This document shows positions 8,870-22,266 of a DNA stretch of 64,000 nt, one piece after another (positions within the stretch are counted from its first letter, which is position 1; every line of letters starts with the position of its first letter). The position numbers and the translations under genes were made by a program. The notes below the pieces were generated by a model that was not told the DNA's origin, ran no database searches, and saw nothing but the letters and a program-made list of their open reading frames with translations. The DNA lies in the NCBI RefSeq assembly GCF_000196615.1, contig NC_014306.1, positions 3,658,001 through 3,722,000 on the forward strand, written 5' to 3'. This DNA comes from Erwinia billingiae Eb661. GTDB lineage: Bacteria > Pseudomonadota > Gammaproteobacteria > Enterobacterales > Enterobacteriaceae.

Positions 8870-11149
8870 TTATAACGGTGCCGTTTGCGCCTCAACCACC
8901 GCCAACGCCACCATATTGACGATACGCCTGACCGAGGCGATTGGCGTCAGCACATGCACCGGTTTGGCAATCCCCATCAGTACCGGACCGACGGTCACCC
9001 CTTCCGAACAGGACACGCGCAGCAGGTTGTAGCTGATCCGCGCCGCCTCAACGTTCGGCATAATCAGGATATTCGCCGCGCCTTTTAACGGGCTGTCCGG
9101 CATCAACTCCTGACGGATGCTTTCCACTAACGCCGCATCGCCATGCATCTCACCGTCTATTTCCAGCTCCGGCGCGCGCGCTTTCACCAGCGCCAGTGTT
9201 TCCCGCATCTTACAGGCGGCCGGTGCGTTGGAGGTGCCGAAGCTGGAGTGTGAGAGCAGCGCAACTTTCGGTTCGATACCAAACCGGCGCACGGTTTCCG
9301 CCGCCATCAGCGTCAGCTCGCACAGCTGTTCCGGCGTGGGATCCTCATTGACGTAGGTATCGGCGATAAAGGTATTGCCGGCAGGCAGCAGCAGCGCGTT
9401 CATCGCTCCGGCGACCCTGACGCCTTCGCGGAAGCCAAACAGCTTTTCGATTACGTCGTAATGCTCTTTAAAGTCGCCAATGGTGCCGCAGATCAGCGCA
9501 TCCGCTTCACCGCGATGTACCATGATTGCACCAATCAGCGTCGGGTTGCCGATCACCGCGCGCTGGGCCTGTTCCGGCGAGACGCCGCGCCGCTTCATAA
9601 TCTGGTAATACTCACTCCAGTAGGCTTTAAAACGCGGATCGGATTCGTTATTTACCACGTCAAAATCCTTTCCGGCTTCAATCTTCAGCCCCAGTTTTTT
9701 CAGCCGCATGTCAATCACGCTCGGGCGGCCGATCAGGATCGGTTTCGCCAGCCCCAGCGAGACCAGTTCCTGGGTGGCATGCAGCACTCTGGCTTCCTCG
9801 CCTTCCGCCAGCACAATCCGTTTCGGATCTTTTCGTGCCTGCGAAAAGATCGGCTTCATAAACAGATTGGTTTTATAAACAAACTCGCTGAGCTTTTCGC
9901 GATAGGCGTCCATATCCTCGATCGGCCGCGTCGCCACGCCCGAATCCATCGCTGCCTGCGCCACCGCCGGCGCTATCTGCACAATCAGCCGCGGATCAAA
10001 GGGTTTGGGGATCAGGTAATCCGGGCCAAACGCCAGTTCTTCATCGCCATAGGCGGAAGCCACCACGTCACTCTGCTCTGCCAGCGCCAGTTCGGCGATA
10101 GCATGCACCGCAGCCAGCTTCATCTCTTCATTAATCGCCGTCGCACCGACATCCAGCGCGCCACGGAAAATAAACGGGAAGCACAGCACGTTATTCACCT
10201 GGTTGGGATAGTCGGAACGTCCGGTGCAGATAATGGCATCCGGCCGCACCGCTTTTGCCAGCGGCGGCAGAATTTCAGGTTCCGGATTGGCCAGCGCAAG
10301 GATCAGCGGATCGCGCGCCATTTTTTTTACCATCTCCTGCGACATCACGCCGGGACCCGAACAGCCCAGGAAGATATCGGCCCCTTCAATCACCTCATTC
10401 AGCGTGCGTTTGCCGCTGTCCTGCACCGCATACGCCGCCTTGGTTTCCGCCATATTCGCTTCACGGCCCTGGTAAATCACCCCTTTGGAATCGCAGACCA
10501 CGATGTTGTGTTTTTGCATTCCCAACGCCACCAGCAAATTCATGCAGGCGATGGCGGACGCACCGGCGCCCGAAACCACCAGCCGCACGTCGGAAATGGT
10601 TTTCTTCACCACCCGCAGCCCGTTGAGTACCGCGGCAGTACAGATAATGGCGGTGCCGTGCTGATCGTCATGGAACACCGGAATATTCATCCGCTCACGC
10701 AGCGTTTTTTCGATATAGAAGCACTCGGGCGCTTTGATATCTTCCAGATTGATGCCGCCAAAGGTCGGCTCCAGCGCGGCAATCACGTTGATCAGCTTGT
10801 CGGGATCCAGTTCATCAATTTCGATATCGAACACGTCGATGCCGGCGAACTTTTTAAACAGCACGCCCTTCCCTTCCATCACCGGCTTACCTGCCAGCGC
10901 ACCGATATTGCCCAGCCCCAGTACCGCGGTGCCGTTAGAGATCACCGCCACCAGATTTCCCCGCGCGGTGTACTTAAAGGCGGCCAGCGGATCGGCGGCA
11001 ATTTCCAGACAGGGTGCCGCCACGCCCGGCGAGTAAGCCAGTGCCAGATCGCGTTGTGTTGCCAGGGGTTTCGTCGGTGAGACCTGAATTTTTCCCGGAA
11101 CCGGGAACTGATGAAAATCGAGCGCACTCTGCTTCAGTTGTTCGTCCAT
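8870..11149 (-). CDS. maeB: NADP-dependent malic enzyme MaeB
   Basis: Oxidative decarboxylation of malate to pyruvate with NADP, 759 residues as in E. coli. The N-terminal malic domain (about 1-430) shows the proton-relay region [10 protein letters not shown] and [10 protein letters not shown], followed by an NAD-binding fold ([12 protein letters not shown]). The C-terminal 330 residues are a phosphotransacetylase-like domain (PTA_PTB family), which in E. coli is regulatory rather than catalytic. The ATG at 11149 follows AAGGATCC. It is transcribed alone, ending at the strong hairpin 20 bases beyond its stop. Confidence 0.97.
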
Positions 11150-11444: not shown

Positions 11445-12407
11445 TTACTTGGTCATATTCAGCAAGGTGCGAATGTTCTGCGCCGAGCTGGCAATAATAT
11501 CGATAGCGCCGGTTCTTAACGCGCCAAGAATGGCCATGGCTTTGGTATTTTCCGAGGCGATGGCAATCACGCAGGGTATTTTGCGCAGCTCTTCGATACT
11601 CAAACCGATCACCCGATCGTTCATCACCGTATCAACGTGCTGGCCCTGCGCATTAAAGAAGTCATAGCCCGCCACATCCCCGGTGACGCCCTGATTCAGG
11701 CTGGCATCAATAATTTCATGCGGCGTAAACCAGCCGAGCTTCACCATATAGCTGTTCTCGTTCATGTCACCAATGCCGACCAGCGCAATATCGGCTTTGC
11801 GGGCGCGATCGAGGGTCTCTTTAATGGTGCCGTTCTGCATAAAGGACTCTTTCAGCGCGCGGTTTTCCACGTAGGCCGGGGCATACAGCGTTTCGCTGAT
11901 GCCGCCGAACTTGCGCGCCAGGCGGCGGCTGATATGGTCGGCGTTGATCGCATCGCCAGGACGATGGGTGCCGCCAATGCCGCTGATAAAGTGGCAGTTG
12001 CGGATCGGCACGTTGCCGGGATGATCGGCCACCGCGGCGATATTGCGTCCCTGTCCCACGGCGACCACCGCGTTATCCTTCAGCGTCTGCGCCAGATGCG
12101 CGGAAACCAGCGCCGCAACCTGACGGCGCTGCTCTTCTTCATCCTGATAATCCAAAGCGATTAAGGCACGTTGCAGCGGAAAACGCTCCAGCAGCTGCTG
12201 TTCCAGGCGGGTACTGAACACCGGGTGATAGCGCACGTTGATTTCAACAATGCCCTCTTCCTTGGCCCGCTTAAGCAAGCGACCCACTTTGATGCGGGAA
12301 ATACCGAATTTACGCGCGATCTCTTCCTGGGTAATTTCGTCCTGATAGTAGGCAACGGCAATTTCCGTCAGCAGTTCTGTATCCTGAGAAGGCGAGTTCT
12401 TTTCCAT
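11445..12407 (-). CDS. SorC-family transcriptional regulator of the apionate-type cluster
   Basis: Regulator of 320 residues. The N-terminal helix-turn-helix spans about 25-52 (ITQEEIARKFGISRIKVGRL). The C-terminal SorC sugar-binding domain (from about 60 to the end) shows VGQGRNIAAVA, the family motif ALVGIGDM and GLSIEELRKIPCVIAIA. Such proteins usually bind a phosphorylated sugar intermediate. It is the last gene in the minus-strand series starting with the MFS transporter, separated from the oxidoisomerase gene by two hairpins. Its effector and targets are inferred to be the cluster; repeated TGAACATATGA motifs upstream of the transporter are candidate operators. Confidence 0.85.
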   Translation of the reverse strand: MEKNSPSQDTELLTEIAVAYYQDEITQEEIARKFGISRIKVGRLLKRAKEEGIVEINVRYHPVFSTRLEQQLLERFPLQRALIALDYQDEEEQRRQVAALVSAHLAQTLKDNAVVAVGQGRNIAAVADHPGNVPIRNCHFISGIGGTHRPGDAINADHISRRLARKFGGISETLYAPAYVENRALKESFMQNGTIKETLDRARKADIALVGIGDMNENSYMVKLGWFTPHEIIDASLNQGVTGDVAGYDFFNAQGQHVDTVMNDRVIGLSIEELRKIPCVIAIASENTKAMAILGALRTGAIDIIASSAQNIRTLLNMTK

Positions 12408-12458
12408 CCGGGTTCTCTTGAGCTGGAGATAAGTCGGTGCCTGGCGGGCAACAAAGCC

Positions 12459-12480
12459 CGGGCGGCACTCGGGCCGCCCG
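12459..12480 (-). repeat. GC-rich hairpin before the SorC-type gene
   Basis: A perfect 8-bp stem (CGGGCGGC / GCCGCCCG) with a 6-base loop lies in the 154-base gap between the oxidoisomerase and the regulator. There is no long T-run, so it may be a weak terminator or an mRNA-stabilising stem. Confidence 0.5.
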
Positions 12481-12507
12481 CACGGTATAGACCGGATTTA
12501 TACCACT

Positions 12508-12553
12508 TTCCCCCGGCGATGAGCCAATGATTGCCCATTCTTGCCCGGGGGAA
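12508..12553 (-). repeat. Long inverted repeat at the 3' end of the oxidoisomerase gene
   Basis: TTCCCCCGG (12508-12516) pairs perfectly with CCGGGGGAA (12545-12553), enclosing a partly self-complementary 28-base interior with CCAATGATTG. It starts 8 bases beyond the stop at 12562. No T-tail follows, so an RNA-protecting 3' structure or a processing site is more likely than a simple terminator; this is inference. Confidence 0.55.
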
Positions 12554-12561
12554 GCTCACAA

Positions 12562-13419
12562 TTAGCGGCGGATTGCGTCAATTTTCAGCATACGGGCAAT
12601 GACGATATCCAACTCTTTCTCGTCAAAAATCTGCTTCCAGTCGGGTTTCACAATCTTCTCACGGCCATATTCCATGGCGATCATGCAGGCATCCGAGAAC
12701 GGGTTGGTGGCGCGGAAAGCCACCGCCAGCGCAATCTGAATATGTCCGTAGAGCATCGCTTTCGCAGCGGCTTCCGGCACGCCAGAATGCTTGACCGTTT
12801 CGTCCAGCGCTTCTTTCATAAAGGCACCGACCATACAGGCCACGGTTTCCACTAACGTTGGCTCCAGATAGGCCAGCTGCTTCACCGTCACCCAGTGCAC
12901 TTCCTCAACCGGGCCGTACATCACGCTGACCACCTTGCTCAGCTCGGCTTTTTGCGCGTCGCTGCCGGTCTCATAGGATGCGGCAATGTGCTGGATGGCG
13001 GCCACACCCCCGAACGCATCGGCATGTTCTTCTTTGGTGTAACGCTCGAGGAATACCGAGGGATGGCAAGGGTGCGCAACCGCGTACTCAATGCCGTCGC
13101 GCTGGGCGATCAGGTTGGCATAGGCGGCAGCCGGATCCAGCGTTAACAGGATGCCGCCGGTTTTCATCTGCGGCACCACGATTTCAGACACTTTGCCCAA
13201 CACGATGTCCGGCACCGCGAGGATCACCACATCACTGACCGGCACCACCGATTCAGCGGCTGACAGTTCACGGCCCTGGGCGGTGACCTGTTCCTGCGCC
13301 TGTGGCGCGCTCTCACAATAGAAGACCTGATAATCACTTTTTTGCAGATTGGCTGAGATGCGCATGCCCATTTTGCCGCCGGCGCCAATAACGGTAATTG
13401 TTTTTAATTGTGTGCTCAT
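12562..13419 (-). CDS. apnO: D-apionate oxidoisomerase-like dehydrogenase (ApnO family)
   Basis: NAD(P)-dependent dehydrogenase of 285 residues. The Rossmann motif is VIGAGGKMGMRI at 10-21. The C-terminal half is of the phosphogluconate-dehydrogenase C-terminal type (HPCHPSVFLERYTKEE, YLEPTLVETVACM). This family includes ApnO, which converts D-apionate to 3-oxo-isoapionate. The assignment rests on the overall family and on neighbours that supply the next four steps. AGGAGTGATTTT precedes the ATG; the gene starts 4 bases after the decarboxylase stop. It could instead act on another branched or C5 acid; the substrate is inferred. Confidence 0.72.
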   Translation of the reverse strand: MSTQLKTITVIGAGGKMGMRISANLQKSDYQVFYCESAPQAQEQVTAQGRELSAAESVVPVSDVVILAVPDIVLGKVSEIVVPQMKTGGILLTLDPAAAYANLIAQRDGIEYAVAHPCHPSVFLERYTKEEHADAFGGVAAIQHIAASYETGSDAQKAELSKVVSVMYGPVEEVHWVTVKQLAYLEPTLVETVACMVGAFMKEALDETVKHSGVPEAAAKAMLYGHIQIALAVAFRATNPFSDACMIAMEYGREKIVKPDWKQIFDEKELDIVIARMLKIDAIRR

Positions 13420-13423
13420 AAAA

Positions 13424-14230
13424 TCACTCCTGGAATTGATGTTTCGCTAAATAATCGACGCTTTGTTGAGTCCACTGCTGTTCCAGCTGGCAGGTGCGTT
13501 GCGCATCCTGCTGCCAGGGTAACCAGTGCTCGACGATTTGGTTGATGCCTCTGCTGTCCGGGCGCACGCGCTCAATCAGCTGGCGATAATTCAGTAAGCC
13601 TTCGCCCATCGGACTGCCGGCGAGGGTAAAGCCGACCCAGCCATCCTGACGCGAGAAAGCAAAATCTTTGACATGCAGGTTCAGTACCCGATCGACGGTG
13701 TTTTCAATCACCTGTTCAGGCAGTTCCAGCGCGGCCACGCAGTTGGCCGGATCGAGACATACGCCCAGAGACGGGGAGTCGAAGCGGTTGATCACCGACA
13801 TCATGTCGGCGCTGCGCACCTGCTCGTAGGTTTCCAGACAGAGTTTGACCTGCTGCTGCTCAAATTTTGGCAGCACGGTTTCGATCATCGCGCCCGCTTC
13901 GGCCAGCGTCGGTCGTGACGTCGCGCTGTTGAACATCGACCGCAACACGGTGACCTCAAGCGCATCGGCCAGTTCGAGGTAGCGTTGCAGATGCCCGGCC
14001 TGCAGGCCACGCGTGCCCAGCTCAAGCGCCATGCCCAGCTGGTCAGCCTGCTGCCGCAGCGCCTGAAGCTGCGCCGCGCTCCAGCTCTCAATCTGCGGAT
14101 AGTCGCAAATCTGGAACAGCGACACGCCCATCTCAGCCGTGTGCTGCAGGACCTGTTGCAGGGTCATCGGTGCCGGGACTTTTTCTGACATCCGCCAGAA
14201 ATAGGCGTAGGTGCTTAAGCCTGTTGCCAT
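13424..14230 (-). CDS. oiaC: 3-oxo-isoapionate decarboxylase-like TIM-barrel protein (OiaC family)
   Basis: Sugar-phosphate isomerase/epimerase-type TIM barrel, 268 residues. The usual metal set is visible: Glu133 (CLETYE), Asp160 (CLDPANC), His186 (LHVKDF) and Glu210 (PMGEG). OiaC proteins of this fold decarboxylate 3-oxo-isoapionate to L-erythrulose, which fits the order of genes here. AGGAGG sits four bases before the ATG at 14230, inside the end of the upstream isomerase gene; the 16-base overlap implies coupled translation. A hydroxypyruvate-isomerase-type role is the main alternative. Confidence 0.7.
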   Translation of the reverse strand: MATGLSTYAYFWRMSEKVPAPMTLQQVLQHTAEMGVSLFQICDYPQIESWSAAQLQALRQQADQLGMALELGTRGLQAGHLQRYLELADALEVTVLRSMFNSATSRPTLAEAGAMIETVLPKFEQQQVKLCLETYEQVRSADMMSVINRFDSPSLGVCLDPANCVAALELPEQVIENTVDRVLNLHVKDFAFSRQDGWVGFTLAGSPMGEGLLNYRQLIERVRPDSRGINQIVEHWLPWQQDAQRTCQLEQQWTQQSVDYLAKHQFQE

Positions 14231-15009
14231 GCTGCCTCCTGAGATGTAGCCAGTTCGGCGGCTTCATCAATAATTGACGCCAGTGCCACCGGCTGATGGG
14301 CAAAGCGTCCAAGGAACAAACCGTCAACGTGGTGACCCAGACGGCGTAATAAGCCCGGCCCCGCGCTGCCGCCATAAATCACGCTGAAGGTGAATTCCCC
14401 CAGCCCGCTGAACGCACGCAGGCCGTGGCAGACCTCAGCGATAAAATCGTCGGGCGCGGAGGTGGCCGCGCCAATCGCCCACTGCGGTTCATAGGCCAGA
14501 ACGATGTGGCCGGAAAGCTGTTGCTGGCGGGCCGTCAGCAGATAAGCGTCCAGCTGCTGACGACAAACGGCAATCGCCTCCTGACTGGTGCCCTGTTCTG
14601 GCTCCCCCAGACAGAGCACCGGCGTCAGGCCATTGCGCAGCGAAGCGGCCAGCTTGGCGGCAATCAGCCTGTCGTCTTCGGCAAAGTAGCGACGGCGCTC
14701 GGCATGACCGATTTCGGCGAAGCCACAGCCCATTTCCGCCAGCATCGCGCCGCTGACTTCACCGGTCCAGGCACCGTTATCTTCCTGACACAGATCCTGC
14801 GCACCGACCAGCACATTGCTGCCGGCAAATGCCTCAAGCACCGGCGGCAACGCGGGAAACGCGGGCAGGACAAACAGCGCCACCTCACCACTGATTATTG
14901 CCGGATGGTTGCGGGCAATGGCCGCGACCGCCTGACTCCACGCCAGCGTCTGCTGATAGCTGAAATACATCTTCAGGCTAACGCCCAGCGTTATACGCGG
15001 CTGTGTCAT
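14215..15009 (-). CDS. lerI: Triose-phosphate-isomerase paralogue, probable L-erythrulose-1-phosphate isomerase (LerI)
   Basis: TIM-family barrel of 264 residues. The catalytic residues are present: Lys13 (SLKMYF), His102 (EIGHAERR) and Glu174 (AYEPQWAIG), with the phosphate loop YGGSAGPG. The normally invariant Asn of the Asn-x-Lys motif is Ser11 here, so this is unlikely to be the housekeeping TpiA. Paralogues of this kind in tetrose pathways convert L-erythrulose 1-phosphate to D-erythrulose 4-phosphate. The start overlaps the kinase stop by one base (TGATG). Function is inferred from context. Confidence 0.75.
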   Translation of the reverse strand: MTQPRITLGVSLKMYFSYQQTLAWSQAVAAIARNHPAIISGEVALFVLPAFPALPPVLEAFAGSNVLVGAQDLCQEDNGAWTGEVSGAMLAEMGCGFAEIGHAERRRYFAEDDRLIAAKLAASLRNGLTPVLCLGEPEQGTSQEAIAVCRQQLDAYLLTARQQQLSGHIVLAYEPQWAIGAATSAPDDFIAEVCHGLRAFSGLGEFTFSVIYGGSAGPGLLRRLGHHVDGLFLGRFAHQPVALASIIDEAAELATSQEAAWQQA

Positions 15010-16760
15010 CAGTGCACTCCCTGCAGGCGGGCTTCGGTCTGCGCGGTCAACTGTTGATGAATTCTGTTAACGATCAGCGCCAGTGAGACGGCACCGGCAT
15101 CCGGCGTGCCGACGCTTTTTTCGGCCAGCGGGCGGGCGCGGCCCATTTTCGGCACCATTTGACGGGTGGCTTCGGCACTCAGCGTCGCCTGCCTGGCGGC
15201 GGCGGCCCAGGCGTCATTCAGCGAGTCACCGGCCTCAACGCGGGCGCTCAGCGTTTCGCTGAACGGCACCAGCACATCGACCAGGGTTTTATCGCCGACC
15301 TTCGCCTTACCAAAGTGCATGATGCCCTCTTTGGCATGCTGCACGCCCAACGCCACGCGATGCGCATTCGGCGACTCAGTGTCACCCAGCGCGGAGCCAA
15401 TAGCGGTTAACGCCACGCCCCACAATGCGCCCGAGGTGCCACCGGCTTTATCCGCCCAGGCATCGGCCGCGCGGCAAAGTAAGGTGCCGGCGCCCGCGTG
15501 GCGCTGGTGCATTTCGACCGCCTTTTCCACCGCCCCGGTCACGCCGCGCGCCATACCAATGCCGTGGTCGCCGTCACCGGCCACCGCATCGATGCGGCCT
15601 AGCTCTTCTTCATGCTGATAGATAACCTCTGCCATCGCCTTCACCACCGCCAGCACGCAGCGCGCGGACTGTTGTGACGCTTGCGAGGCGTTCGGGACCT
15701 CATCCACCTGCGGCAAAATCAGTTCGGCTGCGCTCAGCGGTTCAGCCACCAGCACGCTGCCTTTGCGGAAGGCCGGGGCATTGGCCGGCGCGCGCCAGAA
15801 GGTTTCCAGCTCGTCATCCAGCCACACCAGGGTTAATGACGCGCCGGCCATATTGAAGCTGGTGACAAATTCACCCACCTCGGGTTCAACCACTTCCAGT
15901 CCGGCGTCTTTCAACAGCTGGGCAACGCGGCGATAGACCACAAACAACTCTTCATATTTTACCGAGCCAAGGCCGTTGAGGATCGCCGCCACGCGCTGAC
16001 CGCGCGGTTCGCCAATCTCTTGCGGACACTCTTTCAGCAGGTGCTCAACAAACAGCTCCGCCAGCGTATCGGCCGGTGGAATGGCACATTCGCTGATGCC
16101 CGGTTCGCCGTGAATGCCCATGCCGAGTGCCATGGTGCCGTGCGCCACTTCAAACAGCGGCTGGCTGGCGCCGGGCAGCGTACAGCCGGAAAAGGCCACG
16201 CCGAGGGAACGGGTGCGGTGGTTGGCATGGCGTGCCAGCCGGGTAACCTCGGCCAGCGAGTAACCCGCTTCAGCCGCGGCGGCAACGGCTTTAAATACCG
16301 CTAAATCACCGGCGACGCCGCGTCGCTTTTCCTGCTCGGACAGCGATGCGCTGGAGATATCGTCGGTGACCGCCAGCAGTTCACAGGGAATGCCTTCGGA
16401 TTTCAGGCGCTCACAGGCCTGGCCAAAATGCAGCACATCGCCGGCATAGTTGCCGAACGCCAGCAATACGCCGCCGCCATTGTCGGCCGCGCGGGCCACG
16501 TTATAAATCTGCTGAGCGGAAGGTGAGGCAAACAGGTTACCCATCGCCGCACCGTGCGCCATCCCCTGCCCGACCAGGCCAGAAAATGCCGGGTAGTGCC
16601 CGGAGCCGCCGCCGATAACAATCGCCACGCAGCCCGGCTTGCTGCGCGTGCTGCGCACCACGCCGCCCGCCACCTGACGCACTTTGTCCGCATTCGCCGC
16701 CACAAACCCTTCGATCAGTTCATTGGCAAACGCAGAGGGTTGGTTAAAGAGATAGGTCAT
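15009..16760 (-). CDS. lerK: One-chain DhaK-DhaL kinase, probable L-erythrulose kinase (LerK)
   Basis: ATP-dependent dihydroxyacetone-kinase family protein of 583 residues. The DhaK domain (about 1-330) has GGGSGHYPAF and the substrate-binding His217 (GIHGEPGI). The DhaL nucleotide domain (about 365-575) has Asp391 and the DGDHG metal loop at 396-400. Fusion in one chain indicates ATP rather than PTS phosphate. In tetrose pathways the equivalent phosphorylates L-erythrulose at C1. The ATG overlaps the transporter stop (ATGA), with AGGAG upstream. It could also phosphorylate dihydroxyacetone. Confidence 0.8.
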   Translation of the reverse strand: MTYLFNQPSAFANELIEGFVAANADKVRQVAGGVVRSTRSKPGCVAIVIGGGSGHYPAFSGLVGQGMAHGAAMGNLFASPSAQQIYNVARAADNGGGVLLAFGNYAGDVLHFGQACERLKSEGIPCELLAVTDDISSASLSEQEKRRGVAGDLAVFKAVAAAAEAGYSLAEVTRLARHANHRTRSLGVAFSGCTLPGASQPLFEVAHGTMALGMGIHGEPGISECAIPPADTLAELFVEHLLKECPQEIGEPRGQRVAAILNGLGSVKYEELFVVYRRVAQLLKDAGLEVVEPEVGEFVTSFNMAGASLTLVWLDDELETFWRAPANAPAFRKGSVLVAEPLSAAELILPQVDEVPNASQASQQSARCVLAVVKAMAEVIYQHEEELGRIDAVAGDGDHGIGMARGVTGAVEKAVEMHQRHAGAGTLLCRAADAWADKAGGTSGALWGVALTAIGSALGDTESPNAHRVALGVQHAKEGIMHFGKAKVGDKTLVDVLVPFSETLSARVEAGDSLNDAWAAAARQATLSAEATRQMVPKMGRARPLAEKSVGTPDAGAVSLALIVNRIHQQLTAQTEARLQGVH

Positions 16761-18097
16761 TGTGAAGGCTCCTGTGAAAGACGGGCAGACTGCATTCCTG
16801 AACGTTTGGCGTTGAGCAACAGCATCAACACGGCGGAGAGCAACATAAAGCCGCCGACCACCATCATCGACACGGTGTAGCTGCCGGTGGCGTCTTTTAG
16901 CATCCCGGTCAGATAGCCCGCAGAGAATCCGGCCACGTTGCCCAGCGTGTTAATCAGGGCAATCGCCGCGGCTGCTGAAGCGCCGGTCAGGAACTGCGTA
17001 GGTAAAGTCCAGAAGTTAGGTAAGGCAGCAAAGATTGAGCTGGCGGTGATGGAAATCACCAGAATGGTCGCCATCGGCGAGTCCATATACAGCGCCAGCG
17101 GCACGCTGATGGCACCGGTCAGGGCCGGCAGCGCGATATGCCAGGTTTTGCAGCCACGACGTGACGCATCACGCGACCAGAAGAACATCACCACCGCCGC
17201 AAAGATGTACGGCACGCCGGTAATCAGCCCTTTCTCAATCACGTTAAACGAGGTGCCGAACTGCTGCTGGAAGCCAGAGATAATGGTTGGCAGGAAGAAG
17301 GCCAGCGCGTACAGGCCATAGATGAAGCCGAAGTAGATCAGGCACAGCATCCACACGCGGCCATTAAACAGCACGCTGCGCAGGCCTGGATGGGCGTTGC
17401 CCTGCTTCTGGTCACGCTCTTTTTCCAGCTCGCTGCTCAGCCACGCTTTTTCTTCGGCGTTAAGCCACTTAGCCTGACGCGGCGAGTCGGCCAGATAGAA
17501 CCAGGTGACGATGCCGATGACGATGGCCGGGATCGACACGCCAAGGAACATCACCCGCCAGCCGGATAAACCAAACAGGCCATGCTGTTCGATCAGCGCG
17601 GCGGCCAGCGGTGCACCAAACACCACCGTCAACGGCTGCGCCAGATAGAACAGCGACAGCACCTTGCTGCGATGGCGCGCCGGTACCCACATGCTCAGGA
17701 ACAGAATGGCGCCGGGGAAGAAGCCGGCTTCCGCCACGCCCAGCAGCATCCGCAAGGTGTACAGGCCTTCGACGCTGCTTACCCAGGTAAACAGTAACGA
17801 GACGATGCCCCAGCTGACCATGATCCTCGCCAGCCACTTGCGTGCGCCGAAGCGATGCAGCGCAAGGTTGCTTGGCACCTCCAGCAGGATATAGCCAATA
17901 AAGAAGATGCCCGAGGCGAGGCCGAACTGCGCGGCGTGCAGCCCCAGATCCTCGCTCATGCCGTTTGGCCCGGCGAAAGAGATCGCCGTGCGGTCAAGGA
18001 AGTTGATGAAAAACATCAGCGCCACAAAGGGCACCAACCGCAGTGAGACTTTGCGGATAGCCGATTTTTCGACGGCCGATTGCAGATGAGTTGTCAT
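16757..18097 (-). CDS. MFS transporter, anion:cation symporter type (putative apionate uptake)
   Basis: Major facilitator of 446 residues with twelve predicted helices, of the ACS type that imports sugar acids. Landmarks are FINFLDRTAISFAGP in helix 1, the loop motif RFGARKWLARIMV, and GVAEAGFFPGAI. The frame opens at 18226, but the start at 18097 (MTTHLQSAVEK) gives a normal N-terminus and follows AAGGGGT. It is the first gene of the minus-strand series and overlaps the kinase by four bases. Import of D-apionate or a related acid is inferred from the catabolic genes behind it. Confidence 0.83.
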   Translation of the reverse strand: MTTHLQSAVEKSAIRKVSLRLVPFVALMFFINFLDRTAISFAGPNGMSEDLGLHAAQFGLASGIFFIGYILLEVPSNLALHRFGARKWLARIMVSWGIVSLLFTWVSSVEGLYTLRMLLGVAEAGFFPGAILFLSMWVPARHRSKVLSLFYLAQPLTVVFGAPLAAALIEQHGLFGLSGWRVMFLGVSIPAIVIGIVTWFYLADSPRQAKWLNAEEKAWLSSELEKERDQKQGNAHPGLRSVLFNGRVWMLCLIYFGFIYGLYALAFFLPTIISGFQQQFGTSFNVIEKGLITGVPYIFAAVVMFFWSRDASRRGCKTWHIALPALTGAISVPLALYMDSPMATILVISITASSIFAALPNFWTLPTQFLTGASAAAAIALINTLGNVAGFSAGYLTGMLKDATGSYTVSMMVVGGFMLLSAVLMLLLNAKRSGMQSARLSQEPSQ

Positions 18098-18230
18098 GCC
18101 ACGACCCCTTTTGCCACCGGCATCAAGGAAGAAACGGCTAACGTTGTGTAGGGCGATGAACCTGGTTGAAAGTGAATTTGACGCATGGTTTGAGTCCTCA
18201 GTGGGTCTTCTTGTGCATTGCATCAATGCG

Positions 18231-18241
18231 TGAACATATGA
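18231..18241. promoter_or_regulatory. Candidate operator copy 1 (TGAACATATGA)
   Basis: TGAACATATGAACACT lies 134 bases upstream of the MFS start in the 415-base divergent gap 18098-18512. The same 11 bases recur at 18411. TGAACA-type half-sites are known for some SorC/DeoR regulators, so binding by the adjacent SorC-family protein is a reasonable inference. Confidence 0.5.
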
Positions 18242-18287
18242 ACACTACCTGTATCAATGCTCATTGCCCACGGGACAATCACAAAAG

Positions 18288-18303
18288 TGTGAGCGACCTC
18301 AAA
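18288..18303. promoter_or_regulatory. Candidate CRP site
   Basis: TGTGAGCGACCTCAAA matches the CRP core TGTGA-N6-TCACA at nine of ten conserved positions. It lies between the two candidate operators, which fits catabolite control of a carbon-source cluster. Confidence 0.5.
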
Positions 18304-18410
18304 ACCTTTCATTTTTCCGACTTACGCCGAATAAAAGCGCATTTAAGCGACACTCGTCACCATACCTCGCGTAATAATCTCACGATCAAAAAAAACAAAA
18401 GAACATCTAT

Positions 18411-18421
18411 TGAACATATGA
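18411..18421. promoter_or_regulatory. Candidate operator copy 2 (TGAACATATGA)
   Basis: TGAACATATGAGCATT is the second copy, exactly 180 bases from the first and about 90 bases upstream of the rpiB-type start. A related GAACATCTAT half-site is immediately adjacent at 18401. Paired placement next to both divergent genes suggests co-regulation or looping. Confidence 0.5.
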
Positions 18422-18512
18422 GCATTTTTATGCGAGGGTAATAGCAGTTCGCCGTCGACCGGTTTTCCTGACGTCAGGATGCCCAGCGGCCCCCTTACCC
18501 GTGGAGTAACCT

Positions 18513-18971
18513 ATGACTTCTATTGCAATTGGTGCTGATGATGCGGCGCTGGAATTAAAAAACCTGATTAAACAGTACCTTCAGACGCTGAATCTGGATG
18601 TCAGCGACTACAGTAATGATGCGCAGACCGATAAACCGATCTACCCGGACATCGCATGGACGCTGGCCAATGCCATTAAAGACGGCAAGCATGAACGTGG
18701 GATTTTGATTTGCGGCACCGGCATTGGCATGGCGATCGTCGCCAACAAGGTGCCGGGCATTCGTGCGGCGCAGTGCCACGACACCTATTCGGCCGAGCGC
18801 GCCCGCAAAAGTAACAATGCGCAGGTGATGACGCTGGGTGCGCGAGTGATCGGCCCTGAACTGGCGCGATCGATTGTATCCAGCTGGTTGAATTCGGAAT
18901 TTGAGGGCGGCGGTTCGTCGGAGAAGGTCGATAAAATCAGCTATTACGAGCAGCACGCCGGCGCGAAATAA
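18513..18971 (+). CDS. derI: RpiB/LacAB-family isomerase, probable D-erythrulose-4-phosphate isomerase (DerI)
   Basis: Sugar-phosphate isomerase of 152 residues. The RpiB active-site loop ICGTGIGMAIVANKVPGIRA carries catalytic Cys67; Asp9-Asp10 follow the first strand, and CHDTYSAERARKSNNAQ is the family signature. Canonical RpiB uses ribose 5-phosphate. In erythrulose pathways the same family (EryI/DerI) turns D-erythrulose 4-phosphate into D-erythrose 4-phosphate, which is the expected last step here. GTGGAGTAACCT precedes the ATG. It is divergent from the other cluster genes. Ribose-5-phosphate isomerase is the alternative. Confidence 0.78.
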   Translation: MTSIAIGADDAALELKNLIKQYLQTLNLDVSDYSNDAQTDKPIYPDIAWTLANAIKDGKHERGILICGTGIGMAIVANKVPGIRAAQCHDTYSAERARKSNNAQVMTLGARVIGPELARSIVSSWLNSEFEGGGSSEKVDKISYYEQHAGAK

Positions 18972-19290: not shown

Positions 19291-20241
19291 ATGAACCAGC
19301 TAGACGCACTGAAACAATACACCACCGTGGTGGCTGACAGTGGCGATATCGAATCCATCCGCAATTATCACCCGGAAGATGCCACCACCAACCCGTCTCT
19401 GATCCTGAAAGCCTCCAGCCTCGATTCTTACAAACACCTGATTACCGACGCTATCGACTACGCCAAAAAACAGGGCGGCAGCAAAGAGACTCAGATCATC
19501 AATGCCAGCGACAAGGTCGCGATTAACCTCGGTATGGAAATTCTGAAAAGCGTTCCAGGACGCGTTTCAACCGAAGTGGATGCACGCCTGTCGTTCGATC
19601 GCGGTATGTGTGTCACCAAGGCTGAGAAGCTGGTCAGAATGTACGAAGACAACGGCATTGACCGTTCGCGCATCCTGATCAAACTGGCTTCCACCTGGGA
19701 AGGTATCCGCGCTGCGGAAGAACTCGAAAAGAACGGCATCAACTGTAACCTGACGCTGCTGTTCTCCTTCGCTCAGGCGCGCGCCTGTGCTGAAGCCGGC
19801 GTGTTCCTGATTTCGCCGTTTGTTGGCCGTATCTTCGACTGGTACAACAGCCGCAAGCCGATCGACCCGTATGTCGTTGATGAAGATCCGGGCGTAGTGT
19901 CCGTACGCAACATCTACGAATACTACAAACAGCATCGCTATAACACGGTGATCATGGGTGCCAGCTTCCGTAAAGTTGAGCAGATCCTGGCACTGGCCGG
20001 CTGCGATCGTCTGACTATCTCCCCTAACCTGCTGGAAGAACTGCAGGCCAGCGATGCGCCGGTTGAGCGTAAGCTGAAGCCGTCAACCGAGGCCTTTAAC
20101 CAGCCAACGCCGATGACTGAAGCCGAGTTCCGTTGGGAGCACAATCAGGATCCGATGGCGAATGACAAGCTGGCAGAAGGTATTCGTCAGTTCGCCGTTG
20201 ACCAGCAGAAGCTGGAAGACGTGCTGTCCGCCAAGCTGTAA
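19291..20241 (+). CDS. talA: Transaldolase TalA
   Basis: Non-oxidative pentose phosphate enzyme exchanging a dihydroxyacetone unit between sedoheptulose 7-phosphate and glyceraldehyde 3-phosphate, giving erythrose 4-phosphate and fructose 6-phosphate. It has 316 residues (E. coli 316). The Schiff-base lysine is Lys131 in [11 protein letters not shown], with Asp16 and Glu95 as catalytic partners. AAGGAGCC precedes the ATG. tktB follows after 24 bases. The talA label rather than talB is based on synteny with maeB and tktB. Confidence 0.95.
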
Positions 20242-20265: not shown

Positions 20266-22266
20266 ATGTCTTCACGTAGAGAACTGGCTAATGCCATCCG
20301 TGCATTGAGTATGGATGCGGTACAGAAAGCCAATTCCGGTCACCCAGGTGCCCCAATGGGCATGGCAGATATCGCCGAAGTGTTGTGGCGCGAGTTTATG
20401 CATCACAACCCGACCAACCCACTGTGGGCCGATCGCGACCGTTTTATCCTGTCTAACGGCCACGGTTCAATGCTGCTGTACAGCCTGTTGCACCTCACCG
20501 GCTACGATTTGCCGATTGAAGAGCTGAAAAACTTCCGTCAGCTGCACTCTAAAACGCCAGGTCACCCGGAATACGGCTATACGCCGGGCGTCGAAACCAC
20601 CACCGGCCCGCTGGGCCAGGGTCTGGCCAATGCGGTCGGTATGGCGATTGCGGAACGTACGCTGGGCGCGCAGTTTAACCGCCCGGGTCACGATATCGTC
20701 GACCATAACACCTACGTCTTCATGGGCGATGGCTGCCTGATGGAAGGGATTTCCCATGAGGTCTCTTCTCTGGCCGGTACGCTGGGTCTGGGTAAACTGA
20801 TCGGTTTCTATGACCACAACGGCATATCGATTGATGGCGAAGTGGAAGGCTGGTTCAGCGATGATACCGCCAAGCGTTTTGAAGCCTACAACTGGCATGT
20901 GATCCACGAAATTGATGGTCACGATGCCGATGCCATCAAAAATGCCATCAAAGAAGCGCAAAGCGTTACCGATAAGCCTTCACTGATTATCTGCAGAACG
21001 GTGATTGGTTTTGGTTCGCCGAACAAAGGCGGCAAGGAAGAAGCGCACGGTGCCGCACTGGGCCCTGAAGAAGTGGCGCTGACCCGTAAGCAGCTCGGCT
21101 GGAACTACCCTGCCTTTGAAATCCCGAAAGACATTTATGCCCAGTGGGATGGCAAAGAAGCCGGTGCGAAATACGAGAAGTCGTGGAACGAGAAATTTGC
21201 TGCTTATCAAGCTGCGCATCCGGAACTGGCGAAAGAGTTTTTACGCCGTATGGCCGGCGATCTGCCGGACGTCTGGGAGCAGGAAACGCAGAAGTTCATT
21301 ACTGAACTGCAGGCTAACCCGCAGAAAATTGCCAGCCGTAAAGCGTCACAAAATACGCTGGAAGCCTACGGTAAGCTGCTGCCGGAATATCTGGGCGGCT
21401 CCGCTGACCTGGCGCCAAGTAACCTGACCATCTGGTCTGGCTCTAAGTCGATCAAAGAAGACCATGCCGGTAACTATATTCACTACGGCGTGCGCGAATT
21501 TGGTATGACCGCCATTGCCAACGGTCTGGCGCTGCACGGTGGCTTTATCCCGTACACCGCGACCTTCCTGATGTTTGTGGAATATGCCCGTAACGCCGTG
21601 CGTATGGCCGCGCTGATGAAAGCCCGTCAGATTATGGTTTATACCCATGACTCGATTGGTCTGGGCGAAGATGGCCCGACGCACCAGCCGGTTGAGCAGC
21701 TTGCCAGCCTGCGCGTCACGCCAAATATGAGCGTCTGGCGTCCGTGTGACCAGGTTGAGACCGCCGTGGCGTGGAAACATGCCGTTGAGCGCCATCATGG
21801 GCCAACCGCGCTGATCCTGTCACGTCAGAACCTGTTGCAGCCTGAGCGTAGTAAAGAGCAGGTCGACAACATCTCTCGTGGTGCTTACGTGCTGAAAGAT
21901 TGCGAAGGCACGCCGGAAGTGATCCTGATTGCCACCGGTTCAGAAGTGGAAATCACGCTGGGCGCAGCGGCGAAACTGACCGCCAGCGGCCATAAAGTGC
22001 GTGTGGTGTCGATGCCGTCGACCGAGCTGTTTGATAAGCAGGAAGTGGGTTACCGTGAATCGGTGCTGCCATCCAACGTCACCGCGCGTGTTGCGGTGGA
22101 AGCGGGCATTGCAGATTACTGGTTCAAATACGTTGGCCTGAACGGCGCTATCGTCGGCATGACCACCTTTGGTGAGTCAGCGCCTGCCGATAAGCTGTTT
22201 AACGAGTTTGGCTTCACGGTTGAGAATATCGTCAGCCATGCTGAAGCACTGCTGAAACCTCACTGA
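20266..22266 (+). CDS. tktB: Transketolase TktB
   Basis: Thiamine-diphosphate transketolase of 666 residues. It shows His26 (NSGHPGAP), the ThDP/metal motif [12 protein letters not shown], the catalytic Glu411 (GVREFGM), and the pyrimidine-domain [15 protein letters not shown]. It uses xylulose 5-phosphate, the XylB product, and erythrose 4-phosphate, the expected end product of the 11445-18971 cluster. The tktB label is by position after talA; sequence alone does not separate it from tktA. The AGGGAGAAAAAT ribosome site is strong. Confidence 0.93.

Follow-up and report, generated by a model that had tools for sequence, protein, structure and literature searches.

A block of seven genes separates maeB from talA-tktB in the genome of Erwinia billingiae Eb661, and its place beside genes for a transaldolase and a transketolase raises the question of which substrate the block serves and how it relates to its neighbours. 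We approached this question in a window of 64,000 nucleotides (nt), by which we mean the whole stretch of DNA analysed (NC_014306.1 3,658,001-3,722,000, within a 5.37-Mb genome); unless otherwise stated, positions are those of the window. All block genes are intact open reading frames, at 11445-18971. Our analysis indicates that the block forms an intact operon, that it probably serves to take up D-apionate, the acid counterpart of the plant sugar apiose, and to convert it in five likely steps to D-erythrose 4-phosphate, and that it lies in a slot at which SorC-linked gene sets are exchanged. Gene content, the exchange of gene sets and the recurrence of a promoter motif are read directly from the sequences, whereas activities, ligand and binding are predictions. 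A preliminary description of this DNA had counted six enzymes and a transporter, and the count has to be corrected to five enzymes, a transporter and a regulator. The families and the coupled overlaps that it reported were borne out by strong family matches and by the junction coordinates.

The operon and its predicted pathway

The families of the encoded proteins fit a route from D-apionate through 3-oxo-isoapionate, L-erythrulose, L-erythrulose 1-phosphate and D-erythrulose 4-phosphate to erythrose 4-phosphate, the substrate itself being predicted from sequence. In this chemistry D-apionate is oxidized at C2 with a hydroxymethyl shift that gives a beta-keto acid, and decarboxylation then yields L-erythrulose. 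Import would fall to a major facilitator superfamily (MFS) transporter (16757..18097, minus strand; MFS match 3.7e-46), the predicted D-apionate importer. Its top models, HpaX and D-galactonate transporter, were both matched below their cut-offs, and these best scores suggest an acid substrate. The ATG at 18097 (446 aa) is a more likely start than the TTG at 18226, since the Pantoea counterpart has 447 aa; the TTG frame is 43 residues longer, and this surplus is probably not part of the protein.

The ApnO-like D-apionate oxidoisomerase (12562..13419, minus strand) matches PF16896 (4.4e-62) and, weakly, KARI_N. It would oxidize D-apionate and rearrange it to 3-oxo-isoapionate, a beta-keto acid, in a reverse ketol-acid-reductoisomerase-like shift, and the weak KARI_N match fits such hydroxymethyl-shift chemistry. 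The protein is 38% identical (E 6.8e-64) to a PF16896 protein in a Rhizobium plasmid cluster with OiaX and ApnL. An annotated OiaX is encoded there beside a TIM-family protein, a DerI (256.9 bits, cut-off 240) and a GFO/IDH dehydrogenase, and a further protein scores 1059.8 with the curated D-apionate lactonase model, above its cut-off of 750. A relative of ApnO at 93% bears the JGI name D-apionate oxidoisomerase, and the nearest named genome in the ApnO scan was that of Erwinia typographi (ApnO 97%).

The next step, decarboxylation of 3-oxo-isoapionate to L-erythrulose, is predicted for the OiaC-like protein (13424..14230, minus strand), a xylose-isomerase-like TIM barrel (PF01261, 1.4e-18). 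A grouping with hydroxypyruvate isomerases had been named as a danger to this assignment, and comparison with E. coli Hyi and OtnI gave no match at E<=1e-4. Of the 120 OiaC relatives listed, JGI calls two (58% and 61%) 3-oxoisoapionate decarboxylase, and most of those that have a name go under sugar phosphate isomerase/epimerase or TIM barrel protein. Residues E133, D160, H186 and E234, which we take to be the metal site on the strength of what is known of the superfamily, were invariant in 25 of 25 aligned sequences. A structure model (pLDDT 88.4) matched sugar 3-epimerase and isomerase barrels at 12-19% identity among its 50 best matches. No matching Pfam or NCBIfam model names ApnO or OiaC, and the naming of both therefore draws on context and JGI names. 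Relatives of OiaC at 54-55% were also seen in Escherichia fergusonii and Salmonella enterica; the ApnO gene itself was not found in E. coli, a blastn search of 5,426 E. coli genomes giving no match.

The LerK-like L-erythrulose 1-kinase (15009..16760, minus strand), a fused Dak1-Dak2 protein (1.1e-113 and 8.5e-48), would phosphorylate L-erythrulose to L-erythrulose 1-phosphate. It passes the general dihydroxyacetone kinase family model alone (768 bits, cut-off 492), and its specificity for L-erythrulose is predicted. The LerI-like L-erythrulose-1-phosphate isomerase (14215..15009, minus strand; TIM family, PF00121 7.3e-53) would then form D-erythrulose 4-phosphate. Its Lys, His and Glu motifs are present, it is 40% identical to the Rhizobium TIM-family protein, and its best match among 184 matching PDB sequences was an L-erythrulose-1-phosphate isomerase, narrowly ahead of a triose-phosphate isomerase (126.9 against 122.7 bits). 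Finally, the DerI-like D-erythrulose-4-phosphate isomerase (18513..18971, plus strand; RpiB family, LacAB_rpiB 3.6e-52) would yield erythrose 4-phosphate, which transaldolase and transketolase would consume. It shares 55% identity with the Rhizobium DerI mentioned above, which scores over the cut-off of the DerI model. As an assignment to ApnO, OiaC, LerK, LerI and DerI, the proposal of the preliminary description holds in its family fit, in the separation of OiaC from Hyi and OtnI, in the relation of ApnO to an apionate cluster and in the PDB match of LerI; its chemistry we still regard as predicted.

The junctions between these genes are close, with a 4-nt gap between ApnO and OiaC and overlaps of 16 nt between OiaC and LerI, 1 nt between LerI and LerK and 4 nt between LerK and the transporter gene. 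These five genes, for the transporter and for four enzymes on the minus strand, are tightly coupled, and the SorC regulator gene is separated from ApnO by 154 nt. DerI is divergent and lies 319 nt from talA, and it is therefore not tightly coupled to talA in Eb661; no plus-strand terminator was called between the two. Promoter-like sites in the block numbered 3, where 4.0 were expected.

Gene sets exchanged between maeB and talA

The slot has maeB (8870..11149, minus strand) as its other edge; on the DerI side talA (transaldolase, 19291..20241, plus strand) begins 319 nt 3' of DerI and is followed downstream by tktB (transketolase, 20266..22266, plus strand). The regulator of the block is a SorC-family sugar-binding protein (11445..12407, minus strand; helix-turn-helix plus PF04198, 3.4e-77). 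Relatives of it were found in 66 of 394 genomes of an order sample (E<=1e-90) against 5 of 394 for ApnO, and in 62 of 392 genomes of a family sample (E<=1e-110) against 29 of 392 for ApnO, counts for which the E-value limits differ. We mapped 62 of the 67 SorC places in the order sample (L138-L199; the window and four apionate loci were omitted) and 61 of the 64 in the family sample (L200-L259 and L199; the window, G018 and G126 were omitted), and assigned the loci to classes defined by distance and identity thresholds. The named, order and family collections overlap.

The order sample was made up of 39 loci at which tal and/or tkt were the only recognised partners of SorC, 14 with a C4-type gene set and 9 with nothing recognised, and tal or tkt was present at 43 of the 62. 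The family sample was richer in front ends: 21 apionate sets, 10 sets with alcohol dehydrogenase (ADH), MFS and DhaKL, 10 LerK-LerI sets, 7 PdxA-DtnK sets and 5 with PdxA and a dihydroxyacetone kinase, the rest being 3 with DhaKL only, 2 with LerI only, 2 with tal/tkt only and 1 with none. There tal or tkt accompanied SorC at 53 of 61 loci. The maeB-talA site was occupied by 23 of these 61 SorC loci, namely 13 apionate sets, 6 ADH-MFS-DhaKL sets, one PdxA-DtnK set (L258), one bare locus (L206) and two remnants of apionate operons recognised by inspection, L221 (classed as LerK-LerI; OiaC 37%, ApnO absent) and L217 (LerI alone between SorC and DerI). L210 (maeB 6.7 kb away), L246 (no talA in the region) and L259 were left out of this at-slot count.

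The maeB-talA slot is exchangeable: different predicted sugar-degrading gene sets stand there, accompanied by relatives of this SorC regulator. The best example of exchange is L202. Its SorC is 92% identical to that of the window and falls inside the window's clade (support 97/90), and its TalA, also 92% identical, belongs to the same wider clade (100/98). For DerI the identity drops to 69%, where apionate relatives whose flanks are similar reach 86-91%, and the front end of L202 is of the ADH-MFS-DhaKL kind. At L258 the TalA is 96% identical to that of Pectobacterium L043, but the best SorC and DerI matches reach 72-74%. The trees took in 38 DerI, 39 SorC and 35 TalA sequences of 39 chosen rows. 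Some results sit less comfortably with such a slot. The DerI of L202 stands outside the apionate Erwinia group on weak forks (93/73), and in the order sample 19 of 62 SorC loci lacked tal and tkt within the distances used, and 9 of these had no recognised partner.

One account of these arrangements, to which we give about an even chance, is that maeB-talA forms a slot for pathways ending in tetrulose phosphate or erythrose 4-phosphate, and that an old SorC, first tied to tal-tkt, senses a tetrose or tetrulose phosphate and controls any gene set plugged in there through one operator. Sets with and without LerI share SorC and DerI, and for this reason the ligand of SorC is likely to be D-erythrulose 4-phosphate or erythrose 4-phosphate. 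Such a system would be a natural, testable example of plug-in metabolism, in which substrate modules are swapped at one site while the regulator family and, by prediction, the operator stay the same and all modules feed the pentose phosphate pathway by one exit. If the account is true, new C4/C5 sugar-acid pathways become regulated on arrival at the slot.

A predicted SorC operator

A motif model was built from the 350 nt that precede DerI in a training set of 37 apionate loci (64 before dereplication), with a threshold of 8 bits; rows with less than 150 nt upstream or with a truncated hit were excluded from the motif sets. The resulting motif,.GAACAaATGAACA.TAc, has a width of 18 and the core TGAACA-W-ATGARCA. 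SorC, whose ligand is likely a tetrulose or tetrose phosphate that the gene sets share, would bind sites with this core in the divergent promoter between the MFS gene and DerI. Two predicted operators, both on the plus strand and both with a perfect core match, lie there at 18231..18248 (29.1 bits by the width-18 motif) and 18411..18428 (14.2 bits). These are the only two perfect core matches in the 5.37-Mb genome. An earlier search for exact inverted-repeat words had given several candidates and was superseded by the motif model.

The motif was present in 36 of the 37 training loci against 1 of 37 shuffled ones, the sole miss being L044, a locus without SorC. It was also found before DerI at 30 of the 45 SorC loci of other than apionate type (28 of 43 once the two remnants are taken out) and in 0 of 45 shuffled sequences; a Markov control on the same loci gave a mean of 1.4 and a highest count of 5 of 45 in 20 first-order rounds. 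Motif widths of 14 and 22 gave 30 and 28 of 45 respectively, and the same word was recovered de novo in the 45 non-apionate loci. Where DerI lies inside the operon, as in the PdxA-DtnK loci, the motif was found in the gap between PdxA and LerI at 6 of 7 family-sample loci and additionally at L103. It was absent from all 23 hemF and all 45 tkt upstream regions. The motif offers a concrete handle for finding more modules of the ADH-DhaKL, LerK-LerI/TIM-barrel and PdxA-DtnK kinds.

Several results weigh against a single operator shared by all of these loci. No motif was found before DerI at 15 of the 45 non-apionate loci, in the PdxA-LerI gap of L183 and L256, or in any of 17 talA promoters of apionate (type-A) loci. 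In tal-only loci the motif was weak: 6 of 30 carried it, compared with 2 of 30 after shuffling and with a mean of 0.85 and a highest count of 3 in the Markov rounds. Its occurrence there did not follow the SorC recognition helix, with 6 of 19 for SRAKVGR and 0 of 4 for the SRIKVGR of the window. The de novo word before tal in these loci was a different one, TGAGTAAATGATG. A different operator in tal-only loci owing to a different recognition helix was suggested by 24 loci and not borne out over 30. Part of the recurrence of the motif could also reflect shared promoter ancestry.

The strongest competitor to the operator reading is that the recurrent motif was inherited along with the promoter, or serves a regulator other than SorC, and is not a SorC operator. 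Operator status is a prediction from sequence, the intergenic regions are partly homologous, the motif was not found before talA, and its presence in tal-only loci does not follow the recognition helix, all of which this explanation would accommodate; the result on the helix led us to raise its odds slightly. It has more difficulty with the appearance of the motif in a different promoter (PdxA-LerI, 6 of 7 loci), with the restriction of perfect genome matches to two, with the empty talA, hemF and tkt upstream regions, and with the absence of the motif at the one DerI training locus that lacks SorC. We judge this explanation rather unlikely, while taking it seriously, and prefer a SorC operator. 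A direct regulatory link from the block to talA-tktB in Eb661 is less well supported, given the 319-nt gap and the 0 of 17 talA loci with the motif; in Eb661 the link between them is positional only. Core matches with one mismatch numbered 3 in the genome against 1 for the reversed pattern, and in view of this control we treated as chance the one-mismatch site at C3:2102749, which lies 3.4 kb past an apiose cluster described below and, by eye, before a porin-like gene.

The substrate and its source

The best support for the apionate assignment comes from loci outside the enteric bacteria. In Halotalea (L045) and Salinicola (L049), MFS, OiaC and ApnO alone are kept of the block genes, and in Pseudomonas sp. 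JUb42 (L044) the block enzymes and transporter are present and SorC is absent. The proteins of these three loci are 71-75% (ApnO), 57-60% (OiaC) and 72-77% (MFS) identical to those of the window. In all three, an ApnL relative lies within 10 kb, and so does a GFO/IDH dehydrogenase that shares 50-53% identity with its Rhizobium counterpart; the ApnO-OiaC-MFS trio therefore travels with likely apiose-to-apionate genes. The ApnL relative of L049 reached 395 bits against the ApnL model, whose cut-off is 750, and no other NCBIfam model matched it; that of L044 (L044:16768-18725) is split over two overlapping frames.

Findings in Eb661 itself pull the other way. No ApnL was found in its genome by protein search or by the curated model; the protein search was positive in 3 of 3 ApnL-bearing genomes, and the model was positive in 0 of 14 control genomes. 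Nor did the genome hold a close relative of apiose dehydrogenase (ApdH), its GFO/IDH matches being partial and at 24-31%. DerI reached 179.6 bits with the NCBIfam DerI model (cut-off 240; the model is named for Rhizobium), below the 193.5 bits it gave with the broad ribose-5-phosphate isomerase B model. Since neither ApnL nor a close ApdH relative was found, free D-apionate must arrive from outside or by some other route. Of apiosidases, PF13204 was found in 0 of 1 genome, that of Eb661. ApnL is sparse in the family sample, with matches in 3 of 392 genomes and none above the cut-off: G449 (599.6 bits, ApnO also present), G588 (562.8 bits, ApnO absent) and one trace.

The Eb661 genome has a separate D-apiose cluster of the AptAB type (C3, about 2090.1-2099.4 kb; L099, L137). 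Compared with the D-apiose cluster of E. coli SE15, identity was 45% for AptA/AptB, 67% for the FGGY kinase, 85% for the substrate-binding protein, 82% for the ATPase, 87% for the permease, 61% for DUF2291 and, over the part of that protein compared, 79% for the SDR protein. Strains carrying the SE15-type cluster grew on D-apiose (PMC13001218). With such a cluster present, D-apiose and D-apionate probably take separate routes in Eb661. By eye, the genes that adjoin it resemble a type VI secretion region.

These observations bear on a second alternative, that the true substrate of the operon is another acid, branched or of the 2,3-dihydroxy type, which passes through the same oxidation-shift and decarboxylation, D-apionate being no more than a side substrate. 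It would sit well with the lack of ApnL and of a close ApdH relative in the genome, with the separate D-apiose cluster and with the modest identity of OiaC (just 57-60%) to relatives in the ApnL-bearing loci. However, ApnO and the transporter are 71-75% and 72-77% identical to relatives that lie no more than 10 kb from ApnL-family proteins, and the same five-step end route fits. We consider another acid an unlikely main substrate and retain D-apionate. This places the use of apionate, a part of plant cell-wall sugar breakdown that has received little study, in enterobacteria for which we found no known way of turning apiose into apionate, and it raises the question of where the apionate comes from.

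Age of the operon at the site

The block had also been described as inserted beside talA-tktB, which we find doubtful. The operon occupies the same maeB-talA site across Erwinia, Pectobacterium and Rouxiella, and over 27 maeB-talA loci, some genomes being entered twice, its identity to the window tracks that of the flanks (r = 0.94). Since operon and flank identities fall together, the block looks old at this site. A recent horizontal insertion between maeB and talA would be in line with E. coli 2016C-3878, the single region examined, where nothing is annotated between the two genes as had been claimed for E. coli. It would be in line, too, with the finding that the operon also occurs on a plasmid of Pantoea and at other places together with a tal or tkt of its own, and with the observed exchange at the slot. 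Against the parallel identities and the shared occupancy in three genera we nonetheless regard recent insertion as improbable.

A tblastn search of the 47 ApnO loci in named genomes recovered all seven genes at 40 of them, and tal or tkt was present at 36. The seven exceptions were L021, L025, L036, L044, L045, L048 and L049, of which L021 and L025 are cut by contig ends and L048 is decayed. In this last locus, from a Pantoea that lives as a symbiont of a stink bug, fragments of LerK, OiaC and ApnO stand next to a full-length SorC match. The gap from DerI to the next tal or tkt had a median of 36 nt in 52 loci without maeB and of 231 nt in 39 loci with maeB, counts that also enter some genomes twice.

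Relation to known systems

The pathway is already known, and the operon is a further member of it. Carter and colleagues reportedly described in 2018 (in Nat Chem Biol) the degradation of D-apionate by ApnO, OiaC, LerK, LerI and DerI with a decarboxylase of the xylose isomerase family. The Eb661 operon resembles that system in having the same five enzyme families in one cluster. Its layout may set it apart: DerI is divergent, the transporter is of the MFS type and the regulator a SorC protein, apiose genes are missing upstream, and talA-tktB lie next to it.

A second route uses RuBisCO-like chemistry (OiaK-OiaX), and we compared Eb661 with its representative on a plasmid of Rhizobium sp. BT03 (L052). 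The two share ApnO (38%), LerI (40%) and DerI (55%), whereas the Rhizobium cluster has OiaX and a four-carbon acid sugar kinase where Eb661 has OiaC and LerK, and carries an ABC importer, ApnL and a GFO/IDH dehydrogenase inside the cluster. A family scan found no RuBisCO-like protein or four-carbon acid sugar kinase among the seven proteins of the block. The ApnO, OiaK, OiaX and lactonase steps are described together with growth on D-apiose (PMC11747546), the RuBisCO-like steps of apionate breakdown are treated (PMC6302742), and a non-oxidative D-apiose cluster (AptAB) is described for E. coli ST131/STc14 and Pectobacterium (PMC13001218). The AptAB system is another route of the apiose family, with a relative at the separate Eb661 locus; it uses a split transketolase, an FGGY kinase and a ribose-type ABC importer, and the SE15 cluster has neither ApnO nor OiaC.

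A further related system is a SorC-linked operon on the E. coli plasmid pEM20-18-50_2 (L050), arranged as ADH-MFS-DhaKL // RpiB-tal-tkt, with SorC 77%, DerI 70%, Tkt 77% and Tal 65% identical. Its front end is different, without ApnO, OiaC or LerI, and we would guess at a C4 polyol as its substrate. That the Eb661 block is an operon for L-erythrulose or a C4 polyol seems very improbable: LerK, LerI and DerI would be enough for L-erythrulose and this sister operon with an alcohol dehydrogenase exists, yet ApnO and OiaC would then be idle while being kept with the transporter in L045 and L049, and the family scan found no polyol dehydrogenase family among the block's proteins. A search of the literature gave no description of a SorC-tal-tkt exchange slot with a common operator, in a body of work whose subscription papers were largely outside our reach, so that one may be published.

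Other gene sets linked to SorC

A LerK-LerI set with a second xylose-isomerase-like barrel and an MFS transporter was seen at L101, L236, L239, L240, L243, L247, L250 and L251, mostly with tal or tkt, and at L101 also with a 2-hydroxyacid dehydrogenase. Its substrate is perhaps another acid that decarboxylates to L-erythrulose. Within the PdxA-DtnK set of L103, a four-carbon acid sugar kinase is fused to the N-terminal domain of a sorbitol phosphotransferase system (PTS) EIIBC protein (L103:5649-7367), and the fusion gene adjoins a PTS IIA protein and a KDG permease. SorC adjoins tal and/or tkt alone at L105, at L106 and at most of L138-L176 and L195-L198, in Vibrio, Salinivibrio and others.

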